The position numbers and the translations under genes are program-made. A stretch of DNA of 64,000 bases. Origin: Pelagophyceae sp. CCMP2097 (Eukaryota; Sar; Pelagophyceae). Below are positions 12,238-51,700 of this stretch, in pieces (position 1 is the stretch's first letter; each line of letters begins with the position of its first letter). Where the stretch lies: NCBI GenBank assembly GCA_026770575.1, contig MU657175.1, forward strand, positions 478,853 to 542,852, in the 5' to 3' direction. A model generated the notes under the pieces. The model worked only from the letters and a program-made list of their open reading frames with translations. It was not told the DNA's origin and ran no database searches.

Positions 12238-12359
12238 ATTGATTTTGGGAGGGTCCCCAGGCCATTTGATTTCAGCACCGCAAGCCTCCTCGGACAGAGA
12301 GTTCGCGAAATAGGAATAATTATTAATAATTATCCTAGTAGGAATTCATATCCGGATAT

Positions 12360-12419
12360 GAGGCATGAGGGTGTTTATTTATATCCCGGTAGTAAGAGGC
12401 ATGAGGGTGTTTATTTATA
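12360..12419. repeat. 24-bp direct repeat, two copies at 36-bp spacing
   Basis: Copies at 12360-12383 and 12396-12419 are identical and begin GAGGCATGAGGGTG. They lie just outside the MITE in A+T-rich DNA and may be the start of a satellite. Confidence 0.8.
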
Positions 12420-13330: not shown

Positions 13331-15600
13331 TGTATTGCAACTTTGATACGCTCTCGGAACTGCGAACAACAACATACTTTCGGACATGCTTCGCCGAGGC
13401 TCCGAGTGCAAGACCGCGGTGGACTCTGCTTCTCCGCGCCTTTGAGTGCACAGGCCGCGGCGGACCTTGTTTCGCCGAGGCTTCGAGCCGAAGACCGCCG
13501 GGCCGGGGAACAGCTGGGTCACTTTGGACCTATTGGTATAAGCCATCCTCCGAGTTTGTGGTGCAATTTCAAGTCGTGTGTGTTTATGCCCCCGGTCGCC
13601 GGGGTGCCGCCGCCGGGGGTGAGATAACCACTTGATACAAGAGGCAGCCGAGACTGCAATCAAGGAGCGGCTGTGCCGTCGCCGGGGGGGGCGCGACCTC
13701 TGTATTGCCCCAACAATAAAGTAAGGGTCGGTGTGTAGAAGTGCCCTTCCCGGAAGCCCGCGATTGCGTGAGCTCCCGGGGGCCATCCGCTCCCCGAGCA
13801 GCTTTACATCTGAGCCCCGGGACTCTCTGCTCCCCGAGCTTCGACTCTAAGGGCCCCCGGGTCGGAAGGTGCGATTCTCACCTCCCGAGTCTCCTGAGTT
13901 CTGGTTTCACCCCCTCAATTCATGCTCGGGTCGGTGTGTGTTTACGCAAATTTCCCTTGAGACGTGCTCACCGGCACTTCGGCCGCCGTGTCGTGTTGGA
14001 CACCCCACAGGCTGCTTTCGACCCGACCGCTCCCAAAAGCGCCTGGAGGCCGTCGTTTTGTTCGACGACGTCTTCCAAACGCACCCCCCTCTCGGTCGTC
14101 GCGCGGCTGGGCGCTCTACCCAACCAGCTCCGCCTTTGGGCTCCGCCTCTGGGCTCAAACAGCGGTTGTGAATATAGGGACTGATTTAAATCTTTTGAAT
14201 TCCCACTCAGAACAATTTTTACTTTCGGGAGGAGACAAGGAGCTTGAGAGCCGCTCGAGAGACGCCGCGCGCGCGTCCTCGGGGAAAGCAGGTCGCGCCC
14301 ATCTGTAGGACCGCGCTCGTCATCTCCACGCTACTCCTAGGTGCGCTTACTCGAAGCGCGGCGTCCTTTGCCCTTGGAAACCGTTCGGTCTCTGTGGCTC
14401 CTTGTTTGACTCTGCTCGTCCGCGCCCTGCTCGTCCACGACACGCGTCGCGTAAGCTTCCCCCCGGCCGTCGTTTTGTTCGACGACGGCCTCCAGCGAAT
14501 CCGAAAGTCAAAGACCCCCTGCCTTCTTCGCTTGGTTCCAACCCCATAAACACACGACACTTCAGATGTCCGTTGGACTGTGCCGTCCGTTTGGAAACCC
14601 GGGCCGGGCCCGGCGACGGAGGCCGAGGAGAGGGTCGACCCAGGCCGGACGCCGAAAAGAGGCCCGAAGAGGGTCGACTCGGACCGAGCCCGAAGGCCCG
14701 GCCGGGAGAGGGCCTTCTGAGCCTTCTTGGTCGACGGCTGCTTCAGAAACCTGGAGCAGCTCCTGCCGCTCATCGACTTCTAGGTCGACGAGCTCCTGCA
14801 GCTCCTGCAGCTCGACGACTTGTAGGACTTGTAGGACTTGTAGGCCAGCGACCTGTGGAAAACGATCCATCTTGCCGGACTTGAACCCGGGCCTTTTGAG
14901 TCTGGGCCTGGAAGTCTACCTCAGATGCAATGACTTTGCGAAACACTGTGTTGCGCGACCACTCCGATAATTCTATTACAAGAGCGCGCCGGAGGCACAC
15001 GGAGGACCCGAAGGATACAGCCAAATCCCATTGCAATGCCCACGTAAATAATTGAAATTATTTAACTAATCGCTGAACTTTCAAATCCTCCTTATCTTTA
15101 TTTTTATTATTTTATTTCTTATTGAGCTATTTATTTTTTCTTTTTTTTGCGGCCGACCAGATTCGAACCTGTGACCAAAAACTTCTTCTATGATGATTCC
15201 AATGAGGCTCCTGCTCGACCTCAACTCCCAATTTTAGCAATCGCATCAACCACCAATCGCTAAATCGGCCGAGTTGCTGTTTTTTTTCTTCCCAAAGGTG
15301 GAACCTCACGGATGGACCCGGCGACAGACAGACAAACAGACAAACAGACGGACAGACAGACATAATTGCCCCTGGTAATCCTTCAATCAAAGGACCCGAA
15401 GGGCCCTTGCCGTAAACTGACGTTGAATAAACGGCAAGGACCCTTCGGGCTAGGCTGTCATTTACCTGGGGAATACCCGAAAAGTAACGAAATTACCGCA
15501 GATTACTGGGATTCGAAGTAATCAGAGTAATATCGCTTAAAACGCGTTACTGCAAAAGAAATCTCCTTAGGGCGGCGTAAGAGGGCTCTCTGCGCGCTCC
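13331..15600. other. Mixed repeat region without supported genes
   Basis: Open frames here lack start, splice or family evidence. A 23-bp string starting GGCCGTCGTTTTGTTC occurs at 14048-14070 and 14465-14487. A 29-bp string at 14425-14453 is repeated exactly at 43072-43100. TTGTAGGAC repeats run near 14819-14845. A tRNA-like sequence with an A-rich tail lies at 15120-15272. The mosaic suggests dispersed repeats rather than a gene. Confidence 0.5.
15149..15272 (-). tRNA. tRNA-like sequence or tRNA-derived retroposon
   Basis: On the minus strand the block has a T-arm and B-box match (CAGGTTCGAATCTGG), an A-box-like stretch (TTTAGCGATTGGTGG) and pairing ends (TCGGCCG with CGGCCGC, six of seven pairs). 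At about 124 nt it is too long for a plain tRNA, so it would need an intron or is degenerate, and I cannot assign an anticodon. An A-rich run follows its 3' end directly (plus-strand T-rich 15120-15148), which favours a retroposed tRNA or a SINE head over a working gene. Confidence 0.4.
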
Positions 15601-16066
15601 CTAGGCGACTGGGAGCCTAGGAGTCCACTCGGCCAAGCAATTGGAGTTTTTTTGGGTGGTCGGCGCGAATGTCGGCGATCAGCTGCTTTGGNNNNNNNNN
15701 NNNNNNNNNNNNNNNNNNNNNNNNNNNNNNNNNNNNNNNNNNNNNNNNNNNNNNNNNNNNNNNNNNNNNNNNNNNNNNNNNNNNNNNNNNNNNNNNNNNN
15801 NNNNNNNNNNNNNNNNNNNNNNNNNNNNNNNNNNNNNNNNNNNNNNNNNNNNNNNNNNNNNNNNNNNNNNNNNNNNNNNNNNNNNNNNNNNNNNNNNNNN
15901 NNNNNNNNNNNNNNNNNNNNNNNNNNNNNNNNNNNNNNNNNNNNNNNNNNNNNNNNNNNNNNNNNNNNNNNNNNNNNNNNNNNNNNNNNNNNNNNNNNNN
16001 NNNNNNNNNNNACGAACAGCGCGCCGTATTGTGACTCGGACAGTAACGCAATTACCGCGGATTACT
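15483..16066. repeat. 25-bp repeat flanking an assembly gap
   Basis: AGTAACGAAATTACCGCAGA (start of 15483-15507) recurs at 16042-16066 with two mismatches over 25 bp. The copies bracket the run of N at 15692-16011, so the gap probably holds more of the same repeat. Confidence 0.7.
15692..16011. other. Assembly gap (320 N)
   Basis: A run of N only. Open frames drawn through it are meaningless. Confidence 1.
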
Positions 16067-27835: not shown

Positions 27836-29722
27836 TCAGACGTATCTTGCTGCGCACGCGACTGCGCAGGCAATGGGTCTTGACCGGCCGCAGTCGCTCT
27901 CCGCCGCTCGCCCGCCGGCGCACTCGCAGTAACCCGACGCCCCCGCTGCCACAAAAGCCAGGCAGTCGGTGTCGGCGCGCGGCTCGCGGTCGCCGTTTGG
28001 CGAGCAGCCGCCCGTCTGGCGCCATGCGATGCACAGGCCAGGGCCCGCTGCCGCTTTACACATTTTCTCGCACGTGAAAATGGCGTGGTCGCAGTCCGCC
28101 TCTGCGTAGCGCCGTCCGTTGGCGCACTCGCAGTAGCCGGAGGCGCCAGAGTCAACAGTAGCGCCGCAGTCGACGTCATACTCCGCTTCGCGAGGTCCAA
28201 ATGGCGAACACCCGCCCGTCTGCCGCCAGCCCACGCACCCGCTGCCCGTCGCCGCAGCTGCTGCCGCCTCAGTCGCCTCGGCTGCTGCCGCCGTCTCGGC
28301 CGCCTCGGCCACCCGCCGCGCCTCCGCGGACGCCTCCTCAGACGCCAGCTCCTCGGCCTCGCGCTGCGCGGTGAGCAACGCAGCCTCTTCGGCCGCCGCA
28401 GCCTCGGCCGCCGCGGAAGCCTCGTCCTCGGCCGCAGTCGCCGCTTCCTTTTCGGCTTCCTTTTCAGCCGCGATCCGCGCCTCTTCCTCGGCCGCGGTCG
28501 ACGCCTCCTTTTCGGCGGCGATGGACGCCTCCTTCTCGGCCGCGATCACCGCCTCGTCGTCAGCCTGGGCCTGCGCCTCTGCAGCCTCCGCCTCTGCGAC
28601 GGCTGCGCTCTGGGCTGTGTCGGCGGCCGAGGCCTCCTCCGTAGCCCGAGCTGCCGCGGCGGCGGCGGCAGCATCCGCCTCGGCGGCCTCCGCCTCCGCT
28701 TCGGCGGCCGCGGCCTGCTTCTCCGCCTCTGCAACTTCAGTGGCGCTGGCCTCGAGTCGGTCTGCCTCGGCAATGGCCGCCTCGTCGGCGATGGCAGCCT
28801 CCTGCGTCTGCTGCGCGCCGGCCGCCGCGAGCGCCTCTGCAGCCCGCGCCGCTTCTTCGGCGGCCTCGGTCTGAGCTTGTTCCTCAGCCTCGCGCTCCGC
28901 AGCTTCCGCAGCTTGCCGCTCCACAGCTTCTTCCGCGGCCTGCCGCTCCGCCTCGTCGGCCAGGCGCCGCGCCTCGTCGGCCTGGCGCCGCGCCTCGTCG
29001 GCGTTCGCCGCGGCCTGCTCCGCCTCGGCCGCGGCCTCGTCGGCCGCCCTTTGCGCCGCCGCGGCCTGCTCCGCTGCCGCGGCATCCGCAGCCTCTTCGG
29101 CCCGCTCCGCCTCGGCGGCCTCGGCAGCCTCGGCGGCCCGCCGGGCCTCGTCGTCCGCGGCCTGCGCGTCGGCGGCGGCAGCGTCCGCCTCTGCGAGTCG
29201 CGCCGCCTCCGCCTTCTCCGTCTTCATCGACGCTTCGGCCTGCGCCCGCTGCGCGTTTGCTTTGCCCTCTGCTGCTAGCGCGGCGAGCTGTTCGGCGCCT
29301 TGATTGGCGCGGTGTTTTTCAGCGTCGGCGGCGGAGATGACTCGAGCCAAGCGCACGACGGGCTCCGTTTCCCCTCCAGCGCCGACTTGCATCTGCCGCG
29401 TGGCCTCGCTGGCGTCGAACGTCGATAAAGCGATGCGCTTCAGCATGCGGAGCTCGTCGTCGTCGATCTGGTTGGCGGAGTGGAGCTTGCCGATCACGGA
29501 TAAAGAGTGCATAATGGGCGAAACTAATGCAGTCTCCCGGACCGCCGCCCTAAACAAGTCGTCGCTCAGCGTGCCGCGGAGGCGCATGTCCTCGAGCTGG
29601 CGAAGCTGCGAGGCCAGCGGCGCGCGGCCGCCGACGGCATCGTCGTCGTCAGTGGCGTGGGCCGTTAGAGGACCGGACTCGCCCGCCGCGGCCGCGGCCA
29701 CAGCAAAGAGGAAGAGGAGCAT
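27836..29722 (-). CDS. Secreted Ala-rich coiled-coil protein with two Cys-rich repeats
   Basis: From ATG at 29722 the protein is about 628 residues. MLLFLFAVAAAAAGESG is a clear signal peptide. A short globular part follows (LRQLEDMRLRGTLSDDLFRA, LHSANQIDDDELRMLKRIAL), then about 330 residues of Ala/Glu-rich heptad-like sequence (AEAERAEEAADAAA..., EKEASIAAEKEAS), then two copies of a Cys module. The module reads C-x2-WRQTGGCSP-x-G-x-RE-x5-D-x-C...GASGYCEC-x-GR...DC, with six to eight Cys each. I know similar modules from algal secretory-pathway proteins but cannot name a function. The whole gene appears to be one exon. Extracellular matrix or scale protein is a reasonable guess. A GTG 11 codons upstream is in frame but unlikely as start. 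Confidence 0.75.
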   Translation of the reverse strand: MLLFLFAVAAAAAGESGPLTAHATDDDDAVGGRAPLASQLRQLEDMRLRGTLSDDLFRAAVRETALVSPIMHSLSVIGKLHSANQIDDDELRMLKRIALSTFDASEATRQMQVGAGGETEPVVRLARVISAADAEKHRANQGAEQLAALAAEGKANAQRAQAEASMKTEKAEAARLAEADAAAADAQAADDEARRAAEAAEAAEAERAEEAADAAAAEQAAAAQRAADEAAAEAEQAAANADEARRQADEARRLADEAERQAAEEAVERQAAEAAEREAEEQAQTEAAEEAARAAEALAAAGAQQTQEAAIADEAAIAEADRLEASATEVAEAEKQAAAAEAEAEAAEADAAAAAAAARATEEASAADTAQSAAVAEAEAAEAQAQADDEAVIAAEKEASIAAEKEASTAAEEEARIAAEKEAEKEAATAAEDEASAAAEAAAAEEAALLTAQREAEELASEEASAEARRVAEAAETAAAAEATEAAAAAATGSGCVGWRQTGGCSPFGPREAEYDVDCGATVDSGASGYCECANGRRYAEADCDHAIFTCEKMCKAAAGPGLCIAWRQTGGCSPNGDREPRADTDCLAFVAAGASGYCECAGGRAAESDCGRSRPIACAVACAARYV

Positions 29723-29966
29723 CGTGACACGGAAGCAGGCGAGGAACGGCGGCACGCCGGCCCGGGACTGGTACAGCCCGCGCGCGTCGTCGCGCGTCGC
29801 GAGGTCACCGAGTCGGCACCGGCACCGTAACTTTTCTTAAAAACCCTCTTTCAACGGTCGAATTTCAATGAGCTATATTCCTTAGGATTTGATTTCACTT
29901 TGGTGCAGAATTGAAACCGACCCCTTCAGTGGACTTCCAGTCAGCGCTGGCGGGCACCGTCCCGAT
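29723..29966. other. Head-to-head intergenic region
   Basis: About 240 bp between the divergent secreted-protein gene and the dynein-like gene. It includes a locally A+T-rich stretch around 29830-29900. No TATA box or repeat that I can support. Confidence 0.4.
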
Positions 29967-32900
29967 ATGGACGGCTTCGACGGCATCGTGCCGCAGCCGC
30001 CTTCGGGCCCGCGGTCGAAGACTTCGGATGCGCCGTCCTTGAAGGACCGTTTGATTTACACGGGCCGCGAGCTCTTGAATCGTGCTCCGGAGCGCCGAAG
30101 GCCGGGCAGGCGCATCAAGCCCATCGGGTGCGGCCCTCCCCGTCCTGCAGAGGCGGGTGCAGAGCGGAGCGTCGAATTGCGTACTTTTCTGCCTCTAGGG
30201 ATTCGGCGTCTGTGCTGCGAGGCCATCCGCTCGCCCGGCGCGCGTTCGCGTCACAGGCCGAGGACGACGACTTTTCCCACGTCTCCGCGCTCTCGCACTT
30301 TACGCTGCAAGAGGCGAGTCTCTCAATGCGCCGAGCAGCCGGGCATCCGAGGGACCGACGACGATAGGCGCGGCCCGTGCCGCCGGCCGTCTCGGCGCCG
30401 TCGGTGGCGCTGCAGCGCGTGCTGCCTCGCATCAACGCCGTCAGGGCGGGGAGCGTGTCCAATGCGAGCGGGGTTCGCCGCGCAAAGTCTTCGGCTTCTT
30501 CCTTTGGAGAAACGTTTTCCCAAGCGACCCAGGCGACGGCGGCGACGCCGTACTTATACTTAAAGGCCAACTCGCAGAACCCGTACTCGCTCTCCTCTGT
30601 GGCGCACTCTGGGATCGGTAAGTTTGGGTGGGGAGCGGACTGTCGGTTGGGAAAGGGACCGCCCAAGGCGGGAAGCGTAACTCGGCACCTCTAGGCACGG
30701 GCGGCGACTTTTACCTCTGCTCCTCCTCGGGCCTGGTGCATTCGGAGATTGGCGGCGCGACGGAGTTTACTTCTCGGTCGGATTACGCCCGAGAATCCCA
30801 AGTTTATTTCAAACTCCGGCAGATCCGTTTTTTTGCCCAGTTTCGATGGTTCCGAGCCTTCCACGGCTGGAGGAAGGCGACCCTGTCTCGGAAACGCGCA
30901 CGAGTGACCAAAGTGCTGCAGGCTGAATTGTTCATGCTCCATTCCCGGCACCGCGATTGTTTACTGCAACTCCGATGGGAATGCACTTTGCTCTGGGACC
31001 AACGCTTATTCGACGTCGAGCCCGCCGCTCTTGAAGAGGATTTCGAAGACGCGCCCGAGTCGAGACTCGAGGGTCAGAATGCACCGTTGGAGGGCGCCGT
31101 GCCTCTATTTGACGCCCCGGACTCTACGGCAAGCGACTCCGCCAACGCCGCCGTGGAAAAGGTCGGCGCCTTCTCGGACAGGCAGTCGAGGCGCAGGGAG
31201 GCGGTGGGGTCCGCGATTTCGCAGAGGTCGACGGCCGCGCACGCTTTGGTGCTCAAGTGCTGCGAGGACTCGCTTCAATCCTTCTTAGAGGACTGCGGCT
31301 TCGGCTCGGGCTCCGTCGCGCGGTCGACGGCCGGCGAGTACACGCGCAGGGCGGCGATGCGGGCGCACTGCCAAAAATTGGTCAAGTTTGTAAAACTGGC
31401 AGATTTGCAGCTCTTCCAGGTCCACCTTGACGTCGCCCAAGCTTCGCTCGACGACCTCGTCCGATCCTGCCAACGAGCCGACGCTGCTCTCGATTCGGCG
31501 GTGAAAGAGAAGATGGCCCTCGAGGTGTCTACGAGGACGGCGGCGGCGGGCTACGCCGCGTCGCCTCGAGCGGCACAGGCCACCAGAGCGGCTTTAGCGG
31601 CCTTAGCGGGCGGCGCTTCGAGCGCAGGTGTCCAAGTCGCCGTCTTCGACGCCATCGTGCTTGAAAGAGTGCAGGGTGCGTTTCTTGGAAAAGGGGCTTC
31701 GACTGCCCTTGTTGCCTTGGCGCCGCCTTTACTTCGCGTCGGCGTCGTCGTCCACGGGGACCGCGCGGCACTGACGCCTTCCCGGACGGAGCTGGCGTCG
31801 AGGGTGCACTCTTTAGTGGACGACGCTCTCGCTGTCATGGCCACGCCCGCGCAACTTTTAAGGGACAGCGCGTTTGCGCCCTTCGTCGCCGCCCTCGGCG
31901 AAAACGCCGCCGCCTGCACGGGCCCGAACTTGGTCGAGGTGCTGACCGGTCATTTGCAGTTCCAGAAGAGGTTGGCGACGCTGGATGCTTGTCTGACCAA
32001 TGCCTGGGACGCCGCCGAAGCGTACGCGTCGGGCTTCGACCCCTTCCTCGCCGCGAGTCGCGACCACGAGGCGGCTCGGCGCAGGAGCGCGGTGGATTCG
32101 CCGTTGGCCTCGGTATGCGAGCTGGAGACGCTGCTGGCTCGGTATTCTACGGAAAGCCGCCTCTTCGGTTGCCTGCCTCGCAGTCAACGAGTGGGCATGT
32201 TGCAGATCGATTCGTCTCAAGTGACCACCGGCTTGGAACCGTCGCCCCTCGACTGCTTGGAGACGACGCGGGCGAGGGCGCCGGGGCTTTATAACGCAAA
32301 GGCGGCCAGCCTCTTGCTCGAATTCGCACGGCAGAACGAGGCCTTATCCCTCGAGCTATCGAGGGTGGACGACTACGTCGTCTTGCGGCAGACTCTCTCC
32401 AAAGCGGCCGTCGTGCTGCCGCAGCTGCAGCATTTGGCGGCTTCGCTGGAAAAGGTGCGCAACGTGATGATTGGCTACGGGGTGGACATGGAGGCGACGG
32501 TCGATTCGGCCATCCTCCTCAACAACTTGGATGCATCATCGCGCAAGTCCTTGCTCTCCGCCACTCTGGCCGTGGAAGAGCAGGCGGAAAAGTTCATGCA
32601 CGACCTAGACAGGGATGCGCTCGACGTCTTGGACCCTGTCCTCAAGCTGAAGGCGGAGCTCTCCGTCGAGTTCCTCGCTTGCCCCGGTTTCGACCCGGGC
32701 CAAGCCTTGGCGCATCTGGCTCGAGTGCAAGCCGAGATGCAGCAAGTGGTGGACTCGTGCGCCCGCGTCCGCAAGTCGCAATCCGTTCTCGGCAGGGAGT
32801 CCGAGGCGACGGTGGAAGCGGCCTTTGATTTGAAGTGCTGCGCGGTCAAGTTGGCCCATTTGAAAACGCTCTGGCGCGGCGCCGAGGGCTGGCGGGCGCA

Positions 32901-35900
32901 GACGGCGGCGTGGATGGACTGCGCTTGTTGTGACCTCGACCCGGCGCATCTACAGAGTGTCGTCGGCGACCACGCCGTCGCTCTCAAGGCGTCTTCCGAT
33001 GCCATGCCGGGCAACGAGGCCGCGGCCGCGTATTTCGCCATCAGCGAGGACTTTGCCCTCGTCGTCAAGCTGGTCGGGCAGCTCAAGTCTGATCACTTGG
33101 AGGCGAAACACTACGCCATCATCGAACAAGTCGTGGGCATCAAGCTGTGGGAGCCCTGCTCGGCGGATTCGGCCCTCGAAGAGTCGGAGCTCGACGCGTC
33201 GAATGCCGGTCAAGCCACCACCTCGGGCACGTTGTGGCGACTCTCCGTCAAGCTCGGGGATCTGATCCAGCGGCACGCCATCAAGTTTGCGGCGACGGTG
33301 GAAGCCATCGTGCTCCGGGCGGAAATTGAGGCGAAGCTTTCCGCGGACTTGGCCGACGTCGTCAACTTTTGGGAAGTGGCCGTCCTCCAATCCTCGCTCG
33401 ACGCCACCCCGGCCCCCGCAGCCGCGCGAGGCAGCGGATCCGCGCCCATCGCCGCGTTCCACGGCCTGTGCGACCTGCGGGAGGCGTGCGTTTGCCGAAT
33501 CGTTTGCCGAATCATGCCTCTTTTGATGCCGAAATCGGCCCTAGGTGCGAGGCGGACTGCATCAAGCTCCAGGCTCTGCTGGGGGCGTCGTTTGCGGCTT
33601 CGGACCTGCGTTTAACGATTTTGAAGTGGTTGAGGGACCTCGAAACTGCCTCGACGGCGCTCTTCGACATTTCCCGGTTCCAAGCCAAGCTTCGCAGCGT
33701 GCACGCGCTCGTCTCCTCTTCCTCGGCGAACCGAATCGCAGCCGCAGACGTCTCGCCCCTGTTCGGCGGTGGCAACTGGAAATCGAAATCCGAGCAGGCT
33801 CGCAACAAAAGCTTCGACGCGGGAAAAAAATCCGAGGCCGACTTCCACGCTGCCTTGGATTTCTGGAGGACGTTTACGAGCGCGGCCAACGCGCCTCGGA
33901 GCGCCATCGATCTCGACTCGAAGATGAAATCGAAAAAGAAGACGGCGCTCGACGTTGTATTTTCCGAAAAAGCGCGGCGCGACGTGAGGCAGGCGCACTG
34001 CCGCCTCGACACCGCCGTGGCGGCGATGCAGAGCGTCGTGCGAGGGCGCAAGGCTGCGTACCCTCGACTCTATCTCTGCAGCGACGCCGAAGTGCTCTCC
34101 GCGGCGGCGAGATGTACGCTCCCGTATGATCGCGCTTCGCCGGTCCGACCGATCTACGCGCGCATCTTCGGCGTGGACGCGGTCGACGTCGCGGACGGGC
34201 GGCATTCCAAGCAGAGTAAAGACGTGACGGTGCGGCACTTGAACGGGGATCTGCTCCGATTGCCCAACGTCGTCGACTTTTTCAAGAGCCGAAACACACA
34301 CGTCGACGAATTCTTACACGCGCTCGAGACGGCGCTGGGCAAGCGCATCTTGGACGGCCTGGCCGCGGCGCACGCGGCTGCGGTGGCGCTGGAAGCGCAC
34401 GAGGGTCCCGGGATCATCCCGACCTCGAAATCGAGGCCCTCCGACTTTGCCCGGTCCCAGGAGGATGCGCGCAACCCGGAGGGCGGCCTCGAGGGCTTTT
34501 CCGACTCTGAAAGTCCGTTGCCGGGCAACCGCGACGCTTTGGACGCGTTTTGGGTCCGCGTCCAGGGCCTCCCGACGCAATGCGTCGTCTTCGCCTGCTC
34601 GGCCGTCTGGGCGGCCGCGACGCACGCGGCGCTGGAGGACGATGCGACGGTCGAAAACGCACTGAGCACGCTCTTGCTTCGGAGGCTGGCCCAAGTCCAC
34701 GAACTGCACGTCTCCGTATCCAAGACGGCGTCGGCCGAGGTCCGGTTTGCGCGCATCTCGTTGCTGCAGCATCTGCAGCACGCGGTGGATTCGTTGGACC
34801 GTTTGATCTTTGCCAAGGCGCAGTCCCCGACGCACTCGATATGGGTCAACACGCTCAAATACCGAGTCGTGCACCGTCTTGCGGCGCCAAACTCGCCAAA
34901 GTCCAACCCGAAGATGAACGTGGCGAATACGGGGCCGCCCAATACAGTGCCGCCTCACTTGAAAATGGAATCGCACGAATTCGGGGAGATGGGCACCATC
35001 GGCGACGCCGAGGAGAAGCGCGGAGGCGGCGTCCGAGGGCGTGGCAAATGCGTCTCCTCCGAATCCGCTTCCGTGGCCCTCCAAACGCCGCCTTGGCTTC
35101 GTCTCGAGATGCTCAAACGTCTTGGGGACCACTTTGGATCAGAGGGGCCCCTTTGTCTCGAGAGTCACGAGAGGGGTGCCAGTTAATCAGTCTGCACCAT
35201 TTCAGAATTGACTTCAAGACGGCCATTTTCAGACTTGATACTTGGCCCTCTGGTTCACCCTTCTTCCGGACTTGAGGCGCCTCGATAGGTGCGACTTCGT
35301 TTTGCAAGTTGGCGAAGACGAACTGCCCTACGGCCTCGAGTACGTCGGTTCGCCCCGGCTCGTTGTGACGCCGGCGACGGACCGCTGCATCCTCGGGCTG
35401 GCCAAATGCCTGCGAAGCAAAAAGGCGGGTCTGTTAAGGTCGCCCACGTCGCACACGGCAGAAGCGCTCTCGCTTCTCCTGGCGGAGCCCTGGTTTGCCG
35501 TCGACTGCGGCCTCTATGACGAGGCTTCAACGTGCCTGTGCGCGCCCGCGGTCGGGCTGTTGCAATGCGCCGGGGCCCTGCTGAAAAGGGCGCCGTTGCC
35601 AGACGAATCGACGGTCAACGATGTGGCCTGGATTTGCTTCGACCGAATCGAAAATTTGTCCTCGATCCACCTCGCCTTGCTCGCCTCCGCGGCCCAGTCC
35701 TTCCTCCAGCGCTTCGCCGCAGTCGGCATCCCGCGGGCCCGATTCTGCGCGACGACGTGCCATTCGACCGACTTGGCGGTGCATACGCCGCGCGGCTACC
35801 GCCCCGTCGCGTGCGTCGAGCCCGAGCTGGCGACGGCGGCCGTGTTAGCGCTGCAGAGGACCGGGTGCTGTGCGAATCGTCGGGAATGCGTCGAGTTCGG

Positions 35901-38900
35901 CAGGAGGGCGGCCTGCTTGTGGGGCGCGCTTCGCGGCAATCTCTCCACGCTGCTGTCGTTTTTGAAGAGGCGAACTTCGTTGGACAATTTCGGAAAGGAC
36001 GTTGAGAAATTCGCCCGAGACTGCGGCCTCGGAGAGTCGCGCGCGCACGTCACCGCGCTCGTCCGCCAAATCCTCGGGCCGGCTTCAAACCACGCCGCGC
36101 TCGAGGCCGAGGCCGCCGCCCAAGACGCACATGCCGCGCAGGCAGAGATACCGGATGCCAAGCTCGATGCGGATGCCAAGCTCGTGGAAGCGGCGTTCCA
36201 GGCCTCTTGCGCGCACGCGTGGATGTTGCCTCTGCAGACGGGCCTCGTCCAGCGCGCCCGGGACTGCGTCGAGGCCCTCCAAGCCGCAAGAGACGCCAAT
36301 ATGCGGCTGTGCGGAAGCCGCGTCTCTGGAAACCGCAGGAGCATCGAAAGGCCTCCGAGCCGCAGACATCGCCTCCAGAGGCGGTCCCTGAAATCCTCGC
36401 CGACGATATTCTAGGTGCATCACCGGCCTTTTGTGCAAGACGACGCTGGCTTTCGCGGCCGCGGCGCTGTGCGTCCCGCCGCCCGCAGAGGCGCGCGCGC
36501 CCGCCGTGGCGGTTCAAGCGCCGGCGGTTGAAGCGCCGCGGCTGCTGGCCGTGCTGCACGTCGGCGCGTACGGCGTCGACGACCTTTGGGGCGCCCCGGA
36601 TGACTGCGCCGTGCAAGGCGCCGCGGGCGAGGTGCCGTCGTCGCCATCGTCGCCATCGCACGCTTGTGCGGGTTTCCTTTCGGGCGGCGACGCCTCGTGC
36701 CTCTGGCGCGACGGCATCGTCGGCAAAGCGCTGGAGAGAACTGCAGCAGCGGGCAAGGCTCCAAAGGGAGACGTCAATTTGCAAGATGTCGCCGAGGCCG
36801 CAAGAGCAGGCATCGCCTACGTGGCAACCTCGAGGTCTGATGGGGCCGCTTGGGGGTCCGAGGGCGATTCGGCGCATGTGGTGGATGCGCATCTGGTGGT
36901 GCTCGACGTCTCTGATTCGAGGGGTCTGGATATCGTGGCGCCTTTACTTTATCAGCATGATGGCTTCGCGCAGCTTCGTTGCAACGCGCGCCTCTTCGCG
37001 GGCAGGCGCGGCGTTTTGATCGAAACGGCGGAGCTGGACCACATTACGCCATCCGTACTAGCAAAGTTGGTCGTGTGCCACACTTGCGGCGGCGGGACGG
37101 GTGTTGGCGGCACGCTCCTCTTGGACGTCAAATTGGCGACTCTGAAAGTTTTCAAGCGGCAGTTTACAAAGACGCTCTTGGGCCGCGACGATACAGATGC
37201 GCTCTTCGACCGCCTCGAGGGGCTCTTGGACTCGTACTTCATCGTCGTCGACGCGCATGCCCAGCACGAGCGCCGCCGCAAAGGCAACTGGGCCGCGGCG
37301 TCCGCCCAAACAACAGAGTCCGACGCTTCGGCCCGGCTCCGCGCGGCAAAGGCTTTGGCGGGGCTGCTCGCTTCGGCGCTGAAAAGAGCGAAATCTCCAA
37401 ACTGTGCCGGCTCGTTGCCAGACGTCTGCGTCGACGCACTTTTCCTCCACTGTGCTTTCTGGGCCGTCGCGGGCGCGGACGGCGACGTTGCTGCGCTCAT
37501 GAGGTGCGACGCCGAGATGCGGCGCGTCTTTGAGGCATGTCCGGCGGAACCGTTGTATACGGTGGAGCCTCGCGTGGTGGCCACCGTCTTGGAACGGCGA
37601 AGGTCGTCCACCGGTTTGATTGTGGTCGAGGCGGTGGTCTCTACGGACGAGTTGGACGACGACGTCTCGACGGGTCAACTCTTCTCTCTCGACGAAGAAG
37701 ATGACGACTCTTTTGAACTCAAGATGGACTTCGCAGACGACGACGCCGTGCGCCGCGCCGCTGAATTGGCGACCAAGGCTCAAGAAGCAGAGGACCGCGC
37801 TCTCCGGAGACGCACCTCGGGCAGCGCGGGGAGCGGGAGGGACCCTCAAGGCGACGGCGTGGCGTACGTCCTCACCTGGATGCCGGCAGGGTCGACTCAA
37901 GCTTCTCCCGGGTCGATGCCGCCCAATCACGGGCCCGGCATCGTAGTCGACACGCTCCAAATGCGCTTCAATGCGGCGTTGATCGCGGACGCCCTGGGCG
38001 GTTCGTTGCACGTGGCCCTCTTCGGGGAACGCAACGCCGGCAAGTCGGCGGTCATTGCCCGGGCGGTACAAAGTCTCAAAGGCTCTGGCGCCCTGGCGCT
38101 GTCGACGCGGCTGACGCGCCTCTCCGACGCAAAGTGGCTCGCCGCGTGCGTGTCTCGGTTCACGGCCGGTTTCGCCAAACGTTGGCCGAAGTCTGGCCGT
38201 TCGAGCTCGGTCAGCCGCGGCAGCCGGAGTGATTCCGAGGACCAACCGGCCGAGGAGACTCTCTTCTTGTTCGTGGACGACCTCTCCGTCGACGGTCCCG
38301 GGACGGACGTGAATCCGGCGTCGACGGCCGCTCTCGTCGCCGCTGAATTGGCGCGCAGGCGGGACGACCGCGGCGGGAACGTCGGAGAACTGCTCCGGAG
38401 GTACGCCGAGTCCGCCAGTGCGGGCGGATCTCTCTCTTACGCCGGCACGAGTACGCGATTCGCCCCTCGCTTCGTCGTCTCGCAGCGATCGTCGTTGGAC
38501 GTGGGCGCAAACGCGTGCTCGAAGCGGCTCGGGCGGCACTTTTGGCACTTTGAGATGCGTCTCGACTCTGGGCATTTCGCCGATTCGTTGGCACAAATGC
38601 CCTTTATAGAGTCGCAGCCCGCGTTTCTGCAGGCGACGATTGCGGTCGTCTCCCGAGCCGCGGCGGTGCGCCCAAAGGCGAAACCGTCGGTCAAGCTCCT
38701 CTTGGACTTTGCGCAGGCGTGTTCCGCCGCTTTTCACGTCATCTCCCAAAGTGCATCAAAAGAGGCCCTCGAGTTTGACCTGGCCAAAGCCTGGGCGAAC
38801 CTGGCCGCGTCGGCCTTCCCGCAAGTCCCGCGGCGGGCCGTCTTACAAGTGTGCGGCGCGCACTTTGGAATTGCCGACATGGAGGAAAGGGACGTCTTCA

Positions 38901-41900
38901 CGCCCGCGAATGCGCGCCTCCCGACCGCCTTCAAAAAGGGCTCGGTGCTCTACGTCGGCCACTCTGGCGATGCGCGCCGGGCGGAAGTGCTAGACGCAGC
39001 TCTTGCCAGCGGTCTCGAAATCTTTACGCCTCGCTTGATCCACGCCTCCAACCAAGTCGGCGGGCCGGTGAACGTTTTAGGCGAAAGCCGCGCCGTCGGG
39101 CCGTGGCTGCGCGGCGTCTATTCGGCGGCGCGGCGAGCGACGCTGTCGTCTCAAAAGTCGGTGCTCATCATCACCGACGACTCTTTAGCCTCGTTGGCCG
39201 CCACCTCGGCCGCGATGCCGCAAGACGCTCCGGACCGCGAGGCGCTGGACTGCGCCGACGACTTTGATAAAGCGATGGAATGTGTTCAAAATTTACTGGT
39301 CAACGCACCTTTCTGCGACTTGTTCGACTCCAAGCACGGCGCCTCCCCCGAAGACGTATCCGAGGCGCGGCGCATCGCGCGATCCCTCGTCGGCGAACTG
39401 GCAAAAGAAGACGAGGCGGCGGATCGGCAGGCCTCTCGGGCGTCGCGAGACGTTTTGGTCGGCGGGGCGAGTTCGTTGGAACCCGCCTACGCCCATCTTT
39501 TGGCGGGCGCGCTCAAGGTCAAAGTGGCGCTCCTGCTCTCGCCCGCCAACGCCCTGCGCTTGGAAGCGGCCTTCCCGGCGCTCGCGCACGAGGTGCTCTG
39601 GCGGTTGGACGCCAACGCGTTTTCCTTGGCCGCCGTGAAAGCGACAGACTACCCCGCAGTCGTGCTCCGCAATTTGCCCCGAGCCGAATATCAAGACGGT
39701 GCGGTACGCGACGCCGTCGGCCGCGCAATGGCCGCGGCGGGCGACGTCGACGACGAGGCGGTCGAGGACGCGCTGAGGAGCGTATCCTCGACGCTAGTCC
39801 ATGAAATCGGCCGCCGAAGTCTGGCGCTGCAACGGGACCGGGAGGAGACGAATTCGGCCCTGCAGACGTCGGTGGCGCTCAAGTCCGTACTCCGGCAACT
39901 CATCCAGGCGGAGGCCGCTCCCGCCGCGGAGAAAGCTGCAAAGGCCGAGGCTTGTGCACTGGACGCCTGGCTCTCGGACGAGGTCGCGCCGAAACCGGAG
40001 CCCTCTGCCTTTGACGCCTTTGCCAGCGCGCTCGCGAAATCGCAGATGCAGAGCCCTCCCGCCGGCGTCGAAGTGATGCGCCAGTCTCTCGCGGCGCTGG
40101 AGGACGACGCCGCCATCTCCGCGCTCCGCACTACGCTTTCATCTCTGGAAGCCTGTGATGCCGAGTGGGCATCGCAGCTCGACTACGTTGCAACGCGCGA
40201 ATCATCGCTCTTCGGCGACTGCCTAGTCTTCGCCGTGGACGCACTCATAGCGGCGGCCATGCCCACGGCGGACCACCGAAGAGCCGTCGACGCCGCCTGC
40301 GCAAAGGCACTCGCCGACGGGGGAATCGCGACGGCGGCCGCGGCGAGCCTCTACGCGGCAGCGGGCGCGCGCGCCGCCGCGGGTGTCGCTGCTGTGGCCG
40401 TCGCTGCCACCGCTCCCGCCGCCGCGGGCGACGCCGGTGCACAAAGCGCTGCCGCGGGCGACGCCGCACGTGTTGCGCAAGGCGCTGCGTCGCAAGGTGC
40501 TGTACCAAGTGGTGAAGCGAGGAAGCTGCACCTCGCGTCGCAGACTTCGTCGTTTGCCTTGGGCGACGGCGTAGAGGTCTACGTTGGCCCGGTGCGAGGC
40601 GCGTTGCTCAACGCCGCGGGCCGGCGGCAGCTCCGTGCTTCGGCGCATTTGGAGTCCATGGCGTGGCTCGTCGACGCTTTTTCGACAGGGCTCGTCGTCT
40701 TGGGCAAGCGCGTGCTCATCATCGACCCGTCAGGCGTGGCTGCGGCGTGGCTGCATCAATTGTACCCGCAGCTCGTTGAAAACGTTCCAGAGTTTGCGGA
40801 CCACTTTTTCGCCATGACGGCGACGAGGCGGTCCAATGTCGAAAACGCACATCTTGGCGAAGCAACACCCCAGCTCCTGCTCCACCTCGACGCTGTGTCG
40901 CAGTGCCTGGATGACGTCGACTTCTTACACGACGTGGCTCGAGATACCTTCCTCATCGTGAAAGACCGCACCTCGGTATCTTCCACGGCGGCGCGGCATT
41001 TTACGCTCGTCAATTTCACCGACGACACTCTGCAAGGCTGGATTGCCTCGTCCGATTCTCGCGCGGAAAAGATACGCCTTGGCCGCCTGGACGAAGATGT
41101 CGACGCTTCAGCCTCGGTCCTGCAAGCGGTGGAAGGTGTCAAGGCGCTCTTTCAACTCGCGGCGCCGAATTCCGACGTGTTGCTGCAGCACGTGCGAGCG
41201 TTGGAACCCGCCTCGTTTGCTTTCGAGAAGGCCCGCGCGATGACCGCCCCCCGGCACGGGGCCTTGGAACAGGCGCACGCCGAACACCGCGCCCTATTCT
41301 TTTTGAGCGGCGGCCTTCACCTCCGGCCCCTCTCCGACGCGAGGGCGAAGGCATCGGAGTCTTCATCAGATGGCGAATTGGCGTCTTCAAGGCACGCTGC
41401 GGCAAGGCGCGTCCACGCCATGGGCTACGACGCTTCAGAGTTTGCCAAGCGCGCGGGCGGCGCCGTCGTCGCTGTCCAGGCGCCGTTGCCGGCGTTTGGC
41501 GACGTGCCGTTGCCGGCGTTTGGCGACGTGCCGTTGCCGGCGTTTGGCGACGTGGTTCGCAACTTCCTCACAAAAGTCCCAAATGCCCTCGACTCTCGCG
41601 GGGCGGCGGCTCTGCTCGTCCGAAGCGCCGCGGGGAACGTGCCGGGCGCGTGGCGCGTCGTCGACTGCCGGCTGCCGCTGCAGGACGTGCATTGGACGTT
41701 GGTTTCGTTGACGCACGAGGAAAAGGAAAATGAAAATGCCTTTGAAGATTCCGAGTCGGCGCTCAACGACTGCGTCGTCGTCACACACGTCGACTGCCTC
41801 GGCGGCGACGGCGCCGCGAAGCACCGCCTTTTGATGGACCTGACTCACGCCGCGCTGAGGCCAGAGGCTCTAAGGTGGGCCGAGGACGAGGACGAGGTGC

Positions 41901-42928
41901 AAGTCAAGCAACCTCTCTTCGTTTTTCAAGCTGAAAACTTGTCAAAGGTCCACCCCGACCTTTTACGGCGGTGCAGCGTCTACGCGTGTCGCACTTTGGC
42001 GTCTGACGACTTTGAGGCGGCGCTGGACGTCGGTTCGGCAAACGTCGACGCCCAGCTCTACGCCTCAGTCTACAGCGCTCTCAAACCGCCCGCGGAAGAC
42101 TTGCCTGTTGAGACCGCCCTCGCCGCTGCGCTCGAGGCCGCTTTGGAGGCCGCTTTGGAGCCGTCACGCGCCGCCGGGAAAACCGGAAAATCGCGGCCGC
42201 CCACCGCCAGAACACCTGTCGAGGGCCATTCGCGCGTGCCGTTGCGGAGGCCGTCGGTGAAGAGCGCCGGCGACCTCCCGGCCGAGGCGGAACTCCTCCT
42301 CAACGACCCTTTCGCGACGTTTGGCTTCGAGCCGCTTTCCAGACGAGGCTTCGCTTTACGCTTACAAGCGCGACAGAACAACGCCGCTTTAGCGCAAGGC
42401 CCGCCGCCGCAAAAGCTGCTGGACCAAATGGTCTACCTCTCCAATTTTTCAAAGGAGACGGTCCTCGTCGACCTCTCGATGCTCGGGGACGCCCGCGGAT
42501 TCCTCGCCGCGGCTTTATTGGACGCTTCGCACCACCTCGGCGTCCAGTGTCCCGGCGGCGTCGGCGAGGACTGCGGCGTCGGTGGGCTCGGGTTTTCGGC
42601 GGCGCCGTGGAGCGGCGCCGGCGGGGAGAAGCCGTGGGTCATCGTTTCGGGTTTGACGCTGCGCAATGCCAACTGGTCCGCCGAAAACGGCCTTTCTCTG
42701 GCGGCGGCGGGGTCGTCTTCCAAGGCGCCGGCGTTGGCGCTGTTCCCCGCGGCGCTGAAGTCGTTGCCCGGCGCGCTCTGGTCCGTGGCTCCTTCCGCGC
42801 CCCAGGGGGGGCAATCGTACCTCGCGCCACTTTTCGACCGCCAAATGGCGCTCGTCCTCGCCGTCCACCTGCCCTCGCAAGACGGCCAGGCCCAATGCCT
42901 CGCACATCACGTCTCGATCCACTGCTAA
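29967..42928 (+). CDS. Divergent dynein heavy chain-like protein (pseudo-motor)
   Basis: Aligns by eye with axonemal dynein heavy chains from tail to C-terminus. Tail: PYLYLKANSQNPYSL, then after an intron GGDFYLCSSSGLVHSEIGG and FFAQFRWFRAFHGWRKATLS. Linker: VVRGRKAAYPRLYLCSDAEV (family KRxxFPRFYFLSNDELL). AAA1: YGLEYVGSPRLVVTPATDRC is clear, but the P-loop is RSPTSHTAEA and Walker B is WICFDRIENL. AAA2: TGLLCKTT. AAA3: GERNAGKS (38024-38047) and FLFVDDLSV. AAA4: no P-loop; LSPANALRLEAAFPAL follows. AAA5: LFGDCLVFAVDALI, VLIIDPSGVAAAWL. C-terminus: VIVSGLTLRNANWSAENGL and SYLAPLFDRQMALVLAVHLP. The last exon (36419-42928) is open for over 2,160 codons, arguing against a pseudogene. The N-terminal exons before 30690 and the junctions near 33530 and 35200 are approximate. 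Only about 100 residues stand in place of stalk and microtubule-binding domain. Confidence 0.85.
41483..41554 (+). repeat. Coding tandem repeat, 24 bp x 3 (PLPAFGDV)
   Basis: Three exact 24-bp units within the AAA5-AAA6 part of the dynein-like gene encode PLPAFGDV three times. The identity at DNA level implies recent expansion; copy number may vary between strains. Confidence 0.95.
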
Positions 42929-47600: not shown

Positions 47601-48220
47601 TGTTCGCCACCGTCTCGCCGTGGTCCAGGTGCGCCCCGACCTCGGCCGACCCGATGACGACGCCAAACGACGGGACCGCCAAGCGGCCAATCCGCGTCAA
47701 AATCCACCCGCAAAGAGTCGGCACTTCCAAGTACACCAGCAATAGCAACAACGTGAATAGACCGCGCGGCAGCCACGGCCACGCCCCGCAGCGCAGCAGG
47801 AGGAACCACAGCGGCAGGCCGAGCCTAGCGCTTCGGTGACGACGTCGTCCACGAAGAGGACGCAGCACTCCGGACGCCATCGTCCCGGACGCCGGCGCCG
47901 TACAAAGCGCACTCAGCGACGCGTCTCACGGACTTGGCCCAGCGTTTTTCGATGACGTTCATAGGCCCGAGCTTCCCGTGGCCTTCCTTCGGCGCCGGCC
48001 GCGGTATGGCGCGGTGCAGCGACTTGGTAAGCGAGTCGCGCACGTGCTGCAGCTTCCGCCGCGACTCTTGCAGGTGCAGCGCCGGCAGGAGGTGGCCGAG
48101 GCCGCTCGAGCCGTGGCCGCTCGCGCCGTCCGTGCTCGCGCCATTGGTGTTGAGGCCGCTCAAGCCGTCGCCGTTCGTGCCGCGGCCGCTCGCAGGCCCG
48201 GTGCTTTCCGCGCCGCTCAT
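44649..48220 (-). CDS. Membrane-anchored protein with C2 and PH domains
   Basis: Likely a membrane-contact or lipid-binding protein; no named ortholog recognised. From ATG 48220: Gly/Ser-rich head (MSGAESTGPASGRGTNGDGL), basic helix (LQESRRKLQHVRDSLTKSLH), then after an intron (GA|GTGCGC ... GCTAG|G) the membrane segment LPRGLFTLLLLLVYLEVPTL. A region with FEVSFALDCGAMVASLRKLY and MRVHGARYWLEMARGELNV follows. A C2 domain spans AWDETYLFVSPDLAAVLHLV to GSTLN|VRIRLFRSVL. After a helical stretch (FEEKARKALLRFDVRRC, ...WRFYDGHDISEQPSRK) a PH domain reads EGLLYKKHMYRHHRVHRAP, LM|YVSLRGPMLYYTRR, CLGFTKKLDLRDYAF, RIRLKICK|HTFELAAVLAGS and LDAWWAAIEPQL. Bars mark introns, all phase-consistent. The last intron (44791-44962) is GC-AG. 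The stop is at 44649. Confidence 0.75.
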
Positions 48221-48719
48221 CCGTGCGTCTCTAGCGCGCCGCCGACGTCGGGAACGTCGAATCGGAACAAAAGCGACCGAACGTCGGCGTCCCGAACCTG
48301 AATGCCCGGCAGATTCCCAGAGCGCCCGGATGCCGTTCAACGCCCGCCGGACGCCCGCGGGCGCGCTCGAGCGGGGCGCAAGAGGGCGATCGGCGCCCGG
48401 CGGCTCCGCCGCGCCGCGACCGAGGAAACGCGGTACGCAACCGATCGCTGAATAAGTGTTCTTTAAACTCCGAGCGCGAACGGCGTCAAACTACGCGCGT
48501 GGGGGCTTGCAGGGACATCGCCAATCTCTGACGAGGAGCCTCGTGACGGACCGTGGTAAAGGTGCGACCCGGTCCAACGGACCGCAGAAATCCAACGGGG
48601 TTTGGACCAAAGTTTCCCCAACTTTTGCACGGAATTGAATTGTTTAGCGGTCTTATCGTCCGGAGTTGAATTGTTCAACGAGTTTCTCTTTTCGCCACGA
48701 TTGGGACTCTGAGCCTCAT
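48221..48719. other. Divergent intergenic region
   Basis: Five hundred bases between the start codons of the C2/PH gene and the ice-binding gene. A GGTCCAACGGACCG near-palindrome lies near 48571-48584. I see no exon with family support. Confidence 0.4.
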
Positions 48720-51700
48720 ATGATGCTCGGCCGCGCGCTCGCATGCTTCCTCGCCGGCTGCGGCACGGTTGCCGCGCTCACCGAGCTACTTGACAGCGAC
48801 CGCCGGCGCCCCACCTGACACTGTCGGCTGCATTCGTGCGTCGTGCGAGCAAAACCTGTCAAACGCGCAGGCAACATCGAGCAAGCGGTGCTCGACTGGT
48901 TCACGGACGAGGGGTTGGCTACGGATACGTACGGCGCCATCGAAGTCTGGGACATCACGAAGGTCACGGACCTGCACCAACTCTTCTTTCGATCCACCAC
49001 CTTCAACAGGGACATTGACGCATGGGACACGTCCGCGGTCACGACGATGCAGGGCATGTTTCGTGCCGCGACTGAATTCGACCAGGACCTCTCGAGCTGG
49101 AACACGGCCTTGGTCGAAGATATTCAGAGCATGTTTCGTGCCGCGGCAAAATTCGATCAAGATCTTGGCTGGTGCACGCCGTTGATCATTACGTCCGCTG
49201 ACGCGTTCACCGGCACGCTCTGCGCAGAGTTCAGCTGCGGTGTCCAAATCATCGGCTGTTCGGACAAGCCCACCGGCGCGCCCACGGTCGCGCCCACGGC
49301 CGTGCCCACCGCCGTGCCCACCGCCGCACCCACCGCCGCACCCGCAGTCGTGCCCTCGGCCGTACCCACGACCGTGCCCACGGCAGTACCCACGACCGTG
49401 CCCACGGCCGTGCCCACGACTTTGCCCACGACCGTGCCCACGGCCGCGCCCACGGCAGAGCCCACGGCCGCGCCCACGACTGTNNNNNNNNNNNNNNNNN
49501 NNNNNNNNNNNNNNNNNNNNNNNNNNNNNNNNNNNNNNNNNNNNNNNNNNNNNNNNNNNNNNNNNNNNNNNNNNNNNNNNNNNNNNNNNNNNNNNNNNNN
49601 NNNNNNNNNNNNNNNNNNNNNNNNNNNNNNNNNNNNNNNNNNNNNNNNNNNNNNNNNNNNNNNNNNNNNNNNNNNNNNNNNNNNNNNNNNNNNNNNNNNN
49701 NNNNNNNNNNNNNNNNNNNNNNNNNNNNNNNNNNNNNNNNNNNNNNNNNNNNNNNNNNNNNNNNNNNNNNNNNNNNNNNNNNNNNNNNNNNNNNNNNNNN
49801 NNNNNNNNNNNNNNNNNNNNNNNNNNNNNNNNNNNNNNNNNNNNNNNNNNNNNNNNNNNNNNNNNNNNNNNNNNNNNNNNNNNNNNNNNNNNNNNNNNNN
49901 NNNNNNNNNNNNNNNNNNNNNNNNNNNNNNNNNNNNNNNNNNNNNNNNNNNNNNNNNNNNNNNNNNNNNNNNNNNNNNNNNNNNNNNNNNNNNNNNNNNN
50001 NNNNNNNNNNNNNNNNNNNNNNNNNNNNNNNNNNNNNNNNNNNNNNNNNNNNNNNNNNNNNNNNNNNNNNNNNNNNNNNNNNNNNNNNNNNNNNNNNNNN
50101 NNNNNNNNNNNNNNNNNNNNNNNNNNNNNNNNNNNNNNNNNNNNNNNNNNNNNNNNNNNNNNNNNNNNNNNNNNNNNNNNNNNNNNNNNNNNNNNNNNNN
50201 NNNNNNNNNNNNNNNNNNNNNNNNNNNNNNNNNNNNNNNNNNNNNNNNNNNNNNNNNNNNNNNNNNNNNNNNNNNNNNNNNNNNNNNNNNNNNNNNNNNN
50301 NNNNNNNNNNNNNNNNNNNNNNNNNNNNNNNNNNTGCCCACGACCGTGCCCACGGCCGTGCCCACGACCGTGCCCACGGCCGCGCCCACGGCAGAGCACA
50401 CGGCCGCGCCCTCGACTGTGCCCACGACTGTGCCCACGACCGTGCCCACGGCAGCGCCCACGACAGAGCCCACGGCCGTGCCGAAAGCTGCGCCGACGGC
50501 TGCGCCGATGCTCGCGCCCACCGCCGGGCCGACGCCCGCGCCGACGCCCGGGCCCACGGCCGCGCCGACGCCCGCGCCCACCGCCGGGCCGACGCCCGCG
50601 CCCACGGCCGCGCCGACGCCCGCGCCCACCGTCGTGCCGACGCCCGCGCCCACGGCCGCGCCGACAGCCGCGCCCACCGCCGTGCCGACGCCCGCGCTGC
50701 CGCCCGGGCCGACGCCCGGGCCGACACCCGGGCCGACGCCCGCGCCGACGCCCGCGCCGACGCCCGCGCCGACGCCCGCACCGACGCCGACGCCCGCGCC
50801 GACGCCCGCGCCGACGTTCGTGCCGACGTTCGTGCAGAAGGTTCCGCCCGTGCTCCTCGGCTCGGCAGGCGACTTTGCCATCCTCGCCAAGACGGGCATC
50901 TCCACGGTCCCGCAGTCCGCTATCACGGGCGACATTGGCGTGAGCCCCATTGCGGGCACGTCGATTACGGGCTTCGCGCTCACGCAGGACTCAGAGGCCA
51001 CGTTCGCCACGTCCCTGCAGGTCACGGGCAAGGTGTACGCCGCCACCTACGTCTCGCCGACGCCGTCGAAGCTGACGACCGCTGTCGGCGACATGGAGAC
51101 CGCCTACACCGACGCCGCGGGCCGCCCGCTCTCGGGCTTCGGAGACCGCCTCAACCTTGGCGGCTCGTCGGGTATCGGCGGCAAGACGCTGACGCCGGGC
51201 GTGTACAAGTGGGACGTCGACGTCTTAATCGCCGCCGAAATTTACTTTGACGCCGGCGGCGACGCCGGCTCCGTCTTCATCCTGCAGACGACGGGCAACG
51301 TCGTCGTCGCCACGGGCGTCAAGGTCATCCTCACAAACAACGCGCAGGCCAAGAACATCTTCTGGCAAGTCGCCGGGTTCGTCAAGGCCGACGCCGGCGC
51401 GCGCCTCGAGGGCATACTCCTCGTCAAGACCAAGGCCGTCTTCGTCACGGGCGCGTCGCTCAACGGCCGCGTGCTCGCGCAGACTGCGGTGACGCTCGAC
51501 AAGGCGACGATTACGCAGCCGCCCGCCCCGACGCCCGCCTCGACGCCCCCGCCGACGCCCGCGCCGACGCACAAGCCGACGCCCGCGCCCACAGCCGCGC
51601 CGACGCCCGCGCCCACGGCCGCGCCCACGGCCGCGCCGACGCCCGCGCCCACCGCCGTGCCGACGCCCGCGCCCACGGCCGCGCCGACGGCCGCGCCCAC

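Follow-up and report, generated by a model that had tools for sequence, protein, structure and literature searches.

The gene at ~30.6-42.9 kb on the (+) strand of the window, the 64,000-nucleotide stretch of DNA analysed here, encodes a dynein heavy chain whose tail is recognisable, whose stalk, as judged from sequence and structural models, is reduced to a stub ending about where the microtubule-binding domain (MTBD) would start, and whose AAA1 site lacks its catalytic residues. Our preferred reading, to which we would give a probability of roughly 0.6, is that this paralog of the single-headed inner-arm dynein DNAH6 has diverged, is no longer a motor and has been kept for its tail. We infer the non-motor status from the parts that are missing. 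The exon model comprises four exons joined by GT-AG introns and predicts a spliced protein of 3902 residues, incomplete at its 5' end (an upstream exon was not found) and with the second intron as its least certain join:

30622-33485, + strand: exon for the dynein tail and the start of the linker (frame P0002 matches DNAH6 chains, best 9d2f_T at 6e-21; Pfam DHC_N2 at 43.9 bits, cut-off 31.9)
33545-34875, + strand: exon for the remaining linker (frames and splice sites, after a proposed 59-nt GT-AG intron; DHC_N2 at 16.3 bits, under the cut-off)
35309-36308, + strand: exon for AAA1 (AAA_6 reaching its cut-off with 25.2 bits; HMM alignment over the linker-AAA1 junction)
36415-42928, + strand: exon for AAA2 to the C-terminus, stop codon at 42926-42928 (single open frame; in all 11 scoring windows codon statistics favour the coding frame over the other five)

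Assignment to the dynein family rests on several kinds of evidence. DHC_N2 and AAA_6 were the only Pfam families to reach their cut-offs in the four frames scanned. The 2178-codon last exon gave no Pfam match at E<=1, nor did two pieces of it at E<=0.5, and AAA2, AAA6 and the C-terminal domain were therefore placed by spacing and by eye; the C-terminal domain is without a Pfam match, and the ending of the protein resembles dyneins by eye only. A general dynein HMM, comprising 51 long dyneins (50 from a dynein-2 search) and 7 fragments, aligned across the linker-AAA1 junction (c-Evalue 4e-11 in a one-sequence search) and weakly at the AAA4 P-loop, and in a MAFFT alignment with 32 dyneins the AAA4 P-loop, FP-L, AAA5 DP and NF positions fell in invariant columns. 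An order of six AAA modules as in dyneins is suggested by HMM, MAFFT or structural model for AAA1, AAA4 and AAA5, by a P-loop and spacing for AAA3, and by spacing and eye for AAA2 and AAA6.

The tail points to DNAH6. In a sequence search of the PDB with P0002, the top six chains (6e-21 to 1.9e-15; the next at 5.9e-9) were 9d2f_T, 9fqr_Xz and 8j07_g5, which are named DNAH6, together with 9e5c_6d, 8glv_Fm and 9y6s_6z. The homology covers tail and linker over ~430-480 residues, and the tail match is 22% identical. Among loci from the same assembly (66.2 Mb in 638 contigs; hereafter own-genome dyneins), the window tail is matched best by C47 (2e-17; next other locus 3.6e-4). By sequence, C47 is a canonical DNAH6: its tail ranks the same six chains first as the window tail does, and with its motor 8glv_Fm and the three DNAH6 chains rank first. 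It is normally the motor, more conserved than the tail, by which dynein heavy chains are recognised, as C47 illustrates with ~1437 bits against DNAH6 from AAA4 to the C-terminus vs ~498 bits for the tail. The window protein, by contrast, scored 78.7 bits against the C47 tail ORF (bias 28.9; best stretch 60.6) and below zero against the seven other C47 ORFs reported, motor ones included, in a set of ORFs of 200+ codons to which the 133-codon AAA1 exon of C47 does not belong. The first 50-70 residues of the window AAA1 do match dyneins weakly. On these scores conservation is inverted, the normally best-kept part, the motor, being the part that is lost, with the start of AAA1 excepted. Tail, linker and, apparently, the order of AAA landmarks are what the window gene has in common with DNAH6 (9d2f_T, 9fqr_Xz, 8j07_g5, 8glv_Fm of Chlamydomonas, and C47); it differs in having no MTBD, a stub stalk, degenerate AAA1 and AAA2, and a motor that is undetectable past the AAA1 start in pairwise comparison with C47.

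The loss of the stalk can be followed along the segment from AAA4 to AAA5, where we placed these features:

38939-38980, + strand: AAA4 P-loop, GSVLYVGHSGDARR (weak HMM match; MAFFT invariant columns; AF2 patches at pLDDT 73-86; Foldseek matches to dynein motors)
39536-39583, + strand: AAA4 landmark LSPANALRLEAAFPAL, the SP motif (aligned with RCESNPAL of dyneins)
39752-39913, + strand: predicted CC1 helix at the stalk base (54 residues, 74 in the other model; a helix in both AF2 jobs, at low confidence)
39914-40006, + strand: Ala/Pro-rich linker in the stub (block pLDDT 29-33, no secondary structure)
40049-40099, + strand: PP motif QSPPAGVEVMRQSLAAL, resembling the MTBD entrance (by eye against KPPxxV of own-genome dyneins; may be chance)
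40136-40219, + strand: CC2 base with the L-x-G-D motif (HMM, 15.7 bits on the segment; Trp-to-G spacing of 16)
40220-40717, + strand: Ala-rich insertion that separates L-x-G-D from the AAA5 P-loop (interval comparison with canonical dyneins)
40718-40750, + strand: AAA5 P-loop region, IIDPSGVAAAW (MAFFT invariant columns; HMM)

In the spliced model, the SP motif lies at residue 2773, the PP motif at 2944, the CC2-base Trp at 2983, the L-x-G-D motif LFGDCLVFAVDALI at 2997 and the AAA5 P-loop at 3167. The original prediction had put about 215 residues between the AAA4-side and AAA5-side motifs, too few for CC1, the MTBD and CC2, and this proved accurate: LSPANALRLEAAFPAL and LFGDCLVFAVDALI lie where it had placed them, 224 residues apart start to start with 208 between, vs 398 for the same interval in P0005, a dynein-2 heavy chain. 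From the end of AAA_8 to the start of AAA_9, the five own-genome ORFs with both ends (L014, L016, L017, L018, L020) have 372-400 residues. The shortfall is sharpest between the PP motif and the Trp, at 37 residues in the window gene vs 174-201 in nine own-genome dyneins (174, 175, 177, 178, 190, 190, 196 and 201 in eight canonical ones, with landmark anchors chosen by eye, and 193 in C152). The interval from the end of AAA4, set by eye, to the PP motif is 89 residues vs 137 in P0005, which indicates that CC1 is shortened as well.

The base of CC2, on the other hand, appears to be kept. An HMM of the CC2 base and AAA5 start scored 15.7 bits on the window segment vs 8.9 for the best of 2000 shuffles, though only 9.4 on the whole protein. 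The G position of L-x-G-D lies 16 residues beyond the Trp both in the window gene and in 12 of the 12 own-genome dyneins measured, ten of which have a literal G (C152, C269, C69 and C3 among them) and two of which, C473 and C283, have a degenerate motif with its position set by eye. The spacing pattern failed to match two further loci, C12 (at 692 kb) and C521, and likewise one of two controls; MT matches fell on 16 contigs, and the spacing was measured in part of these loci. Because MAFFT set the stalk gap elsewhere, the placement of the PP motif and the Trp rests on HMM and spacing. Judged from the sequence, the PP match may be due to chance, which is unlikely for the Trp and L-x-G-D match.

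The MTBD itself is missing. An MTBD HMM that found 8 of 8 known MTBDs in a leave-one-out control (E 4.2e-16 or better) gave no match to the 3902-residue model or across 30-44 kb read in six frames, and PF12777 had no match within the window. The absence of an HMM match in model and six frames rules out an MTBD relocated within that span, and an additional hidden stalk exon is ruled out by the frame, which is continuous over the site, and by the fixed length of the DNA. Structural models agree in giving a low-confidence stub with a CC1 helix. AF2 of the stub alone, from a single sequence, predicted a first helix of 54 residues and a last one of 51, with a 31-residue gap and then two short helices between them (mean pLDDT 51.8). 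AF2 of the AAA4-AAA5 segment with 32 dyneins, where the stalk is biased by the wrong gap in the alignment, gave AAA4 patches at pLDDT 73-86 and a poor remainder (mean 50.5). Foldseek gave 25 matches to the latter model at E<=0.001, of which 21 carry titles that name dynein; the others are 8glv_Cn and 9fqr_Xw, which are dynein chains by sequence searches, and two unnamed chains of axonemal repeat entries. This result is partly circular, since dyneins were in the input alignment. The term stalkless, used in the original prediction, thus holds for the MTBD and for most of the stalk, but the loss is not a clean one, as a CC1-like helix, a PP motif and the CC2 base appear to remain. By sequence comparison, the loss is in frame and amounts to ~140 residues of MTBD body and outer CC2 plus ~35-50 residues of CC1.

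Beyond the stub the chain is longer than usual: 170 residues separate the G of L-x-G-D from the D of the AAA5 DP, vs ~82-91 in six of the eight canonical dyneins (C11 and C63 gave no value). Further along, at 41482-41554, a perfect 24-base repeat in 3 copies encodes PLPAFGDV repeats between AAA5 and AAA6.

Could the short stalk be an artefact of the assembly, the true gene having a full stalk of which ~500 bases are missing from the contig? One uninterrupted frame of 2178 codons (36392-42928) spans the stalk site, as the original prediction of a frame continuous on both sides had it, so the loss would have to be in frame, and the stub itself is coding (codon score 0.34, no stop). The dynein gene contains no N, and no tandem repeat was reported at the stalk site. 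AAA1 is degraded independently of the stalk, and in the same assembly two other diverged dyneins, C168 and C10, have full-length stalks, while a third, C173, has a shorter interval. We therefore regard a local assembly error as highly improbable.

The catalytic sites are the second part of the motor to be affected, as summarised by four positions:

35431-35463, + strand: AAA1 Walker A position, degenerate, LLRSPTSHTAE (after the HMM-aligned AAA1 start; C47 has GPAGTGKTE)
35629-35646, + strand: AAA1 Walker B, WICFDR, with the catalytic Glu replaced by Arg (translation; aligned by eye with CLDEFNRI of C47)
36419-36445, + strand: AAA2 P-loop position, degenerate, ITGLLCKTT (by eye and by spacing, 294 residues after AAA1 vs 290 in P0005)
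38018-38050, + strand: AAA3 Walker A, intact, LFGERNAGKSA (the sole GxxxxGK[ST] in the 3902-residue model)

Both the Walker A Lys and the Walker B Glu of the AAA1 hydrolytic site are absent, so the AAA1 that had been called dead is indeed without its catalytic residues. The further description of the whole as a non-motor ring fits the missing parts, but "dead ring" would be too strong, as the AAA3 ATP site, with GERNAGKSA and FLFVDD, is intact and may still bind nucleotide. This raises the possibility of a regulated ring, in which AAA3 would bind or hydrolyse ATP and the linker would move without any stepping, perhaps as a control on how neighbouring arms dock. The intact AAA3 motifs and the linker homology are consistent with it. 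In known dyneins, however, it is AAA1 that drives the linker swing, and here AAA1 has neither Walker A nor Glu, and any AAA3 activity is a prediction from its motifs; a regulated ring of this kind seems distinctly improbable.

A plainer alternative is that the gene is a decaying relic, from which relaxed selection has removed stalk and catalytic residues and which has no function. Several of its features would fit: a number of sites are degraded together, there are low-complexity Ala-rich and repeat insertions, and codon bias is weaker than in most of the comparison dynein genes. Searches of protein models of at least 1198 aa also returned no homolog at E<=0.01, either with the 2178-aa ORF (7984 candidates scored, targets of 1198-3811 aa) or with the 3902-aa spliced model (1746 scored); a PDB sequence search with P0001 and a search of Rfam likewise gave 0 matches. 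The main argument against decay is that a neutral gene so diverged should carry stop codons, and none is seen: despite the great divergence of the motor, there are 0 stops in the coding frame over the 2178-codon exon vs 35 and 28 in the other two forward frames. The retained similarity of the tail and the exactly retained spacing of the CC2 base also speak against it, and overall we think decay unlikely.

Related changes are found in other dyneins of this genome. Family searches returned several loci with linker or AAA matches but without a PF12777 match, among them three diverged genes (C168, C10 and C173, covered by L026-L031). From the missing PF12777 one might conclude that all diverged dyneins here are stalkless; this is wrong, as C168 and C10, whose open frames are very long at 5141 and 5627 aa, measure 201 and 217 residues from a PP-like motif to the Trp and so have full-length stalks. 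C173 (L027, a minus-strand frame) has a shorter AAA4-CC2 interval, and a single in-frame stop separates its two long frames; its CC1 and most of its MTBD seem to be absent and its CC2 present, and a deletion, breakage of the gene or a short intron could each account for the interval. From the G position to the D of DP, C168 (~142 residues) and C173 (~127) are also above the canonical range.

At AAA1, the Walker A and Walker B sequences read by eye are GVPGAGATAT and WLVLDHGH in C168, GPKAGGKAE and ILLFDVAT in C10, and GAAGAGKTS and WLLLTGVS in C173. C173 has an intact Walker A and C10 a nearly intact one, but the Walker B Glu is missing, by eye, in all four diverged dyneins, the window gene included. 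In sequence, then, the loss of the AAA1 Glu is common to the diverged dyneins and the loss of the stalk is not: C168 and C10 keep it, and C173 is intermediate. A broader proposal, which we advance tentatively and at somewhat less than even odds, is that at least four genes of this alga, each lacking the AAA1 catalytic Glu, form a small class of pseudo-dyneins retained as non-motor components of its flagellum or some other structure. The end point of this class would be the window gene, a natural dynein with its tail kept under selection and with ring catalysis and microtubule binding both gone.

How might a diverged DNAH6 paralog that is no longer a motor act? Inner-arm dyneins dock on the doublet via their tails. 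The ring would probably still fold, but without AAA1 hydrolysis and an MTBD the protein should neither step on nor grip the neighbouring doublet. It would be kept for what its tail binds, most simply the docking site on the A-tubule or inner-arm light chains, and could act as a passive placeholder or as a regulator beside canonical DNAH6. Beside a DNAH6 with intact motifs, a chain whose tail is intact and whose motor is dead is best interpreted as having a structural or regulatory role. An axonemal location is predicted from family membership. Dynein would have a pseudo-enzyme form in a chain that keeps its tail while losing both catalysis and microtubule binding, and such a chain would allow a direct test of whether some inner arms serve only as structural parts.

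A ring of this type has reportedly been made in the laboratory from an otherwise active motor. That engineered dynein motor with a truncated MTBD is, like the window protein, a ring without an MTBD, and its crystal structure, as given in the available part of the entry, shows that such a ring can fold (PDB 3vkg). The window gene would be the natural counterpart of this stalk-truncated motor.

Among inner-arm dyneins, mammalian DNAH12 is reported to lack an MTBD, like the window gene; the available text of one study describes it as the sole DNAH family member without this domain, acting through DNAH1 and DNALI1 (PMC11949491). Yet PDB chains of DNAH12, 3960 residues long, could be aligned with the queries used here through the stalk region, so a domain call or an isoform may underlie the MTBD-less report. 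The name DNAH12 is absent from the available main text of Lacey et al. (PMC6629372), a paper cited in the DNAH12 study. The window gene differs from DNAH12 in that it lacks the stalk sequence as such and has a degenerate AAA1. The statement on DNAH12 aside, no natural stalkless or AAA1-dead dynein appeared among the literature matches listed, as far as the available portions of those texts go.

Giant AAA rings without a microtubule-binding stalk also exist outside the dyneins, in RNF213 and midasin, whose accessory domains are an E3 RING and a MIDAS, respectively. To our knowledge, neither has a dynein tail or linker. In contrast, the Pfam matches of the window protein include DHC_N2 and no domain of the E3 type, and a ring of the RNF213 or midasin type was rejected on the ground that, in the four frames scanned, only DHC_N2 and AAA_6 reach their Pfam cut-offs. 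A dynein-like core has been described for RNF213 in the portion of text available (PMC7311170).

Similar genes may exist unexamined, since the available part of the survey by Wickstead and Gull states that highly diverged dyneins of P. falciparum were excluded from analysis (PMC2239267). The same part of that survey reports that the diatom T. pseudonana is without all five inner-arm dynein families (PMC2239267), which would make it reasonable to expect such intermediates in algae of this wider group.

Some further observations concern the dynein set and the surrounding DNA. Two more loci, C21 and C265, have DHC_N2 fragments. C473 (dynein-2) and C283 (dynein-1-like by eye) are each a single open frame of >4000 codons, whereas most axonemal dyneins match exon by exon. 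Compared with the NCBI protein P0005, the C473 ORF shows 1 mismatch over 4142 residues, 3 gaps aside. Elsewhere in the window, a 666-codon frame on the minus strand (27836-29836) is Ala/Glu-rich, with an apparent signal peptide and a Cys-rich end by eye. Finally, G+C is ~65% around the dynein gene, and drops to 0.44-0.48 at 12001-16000 and 48001-50000 vs ~0.65 around these two segments.
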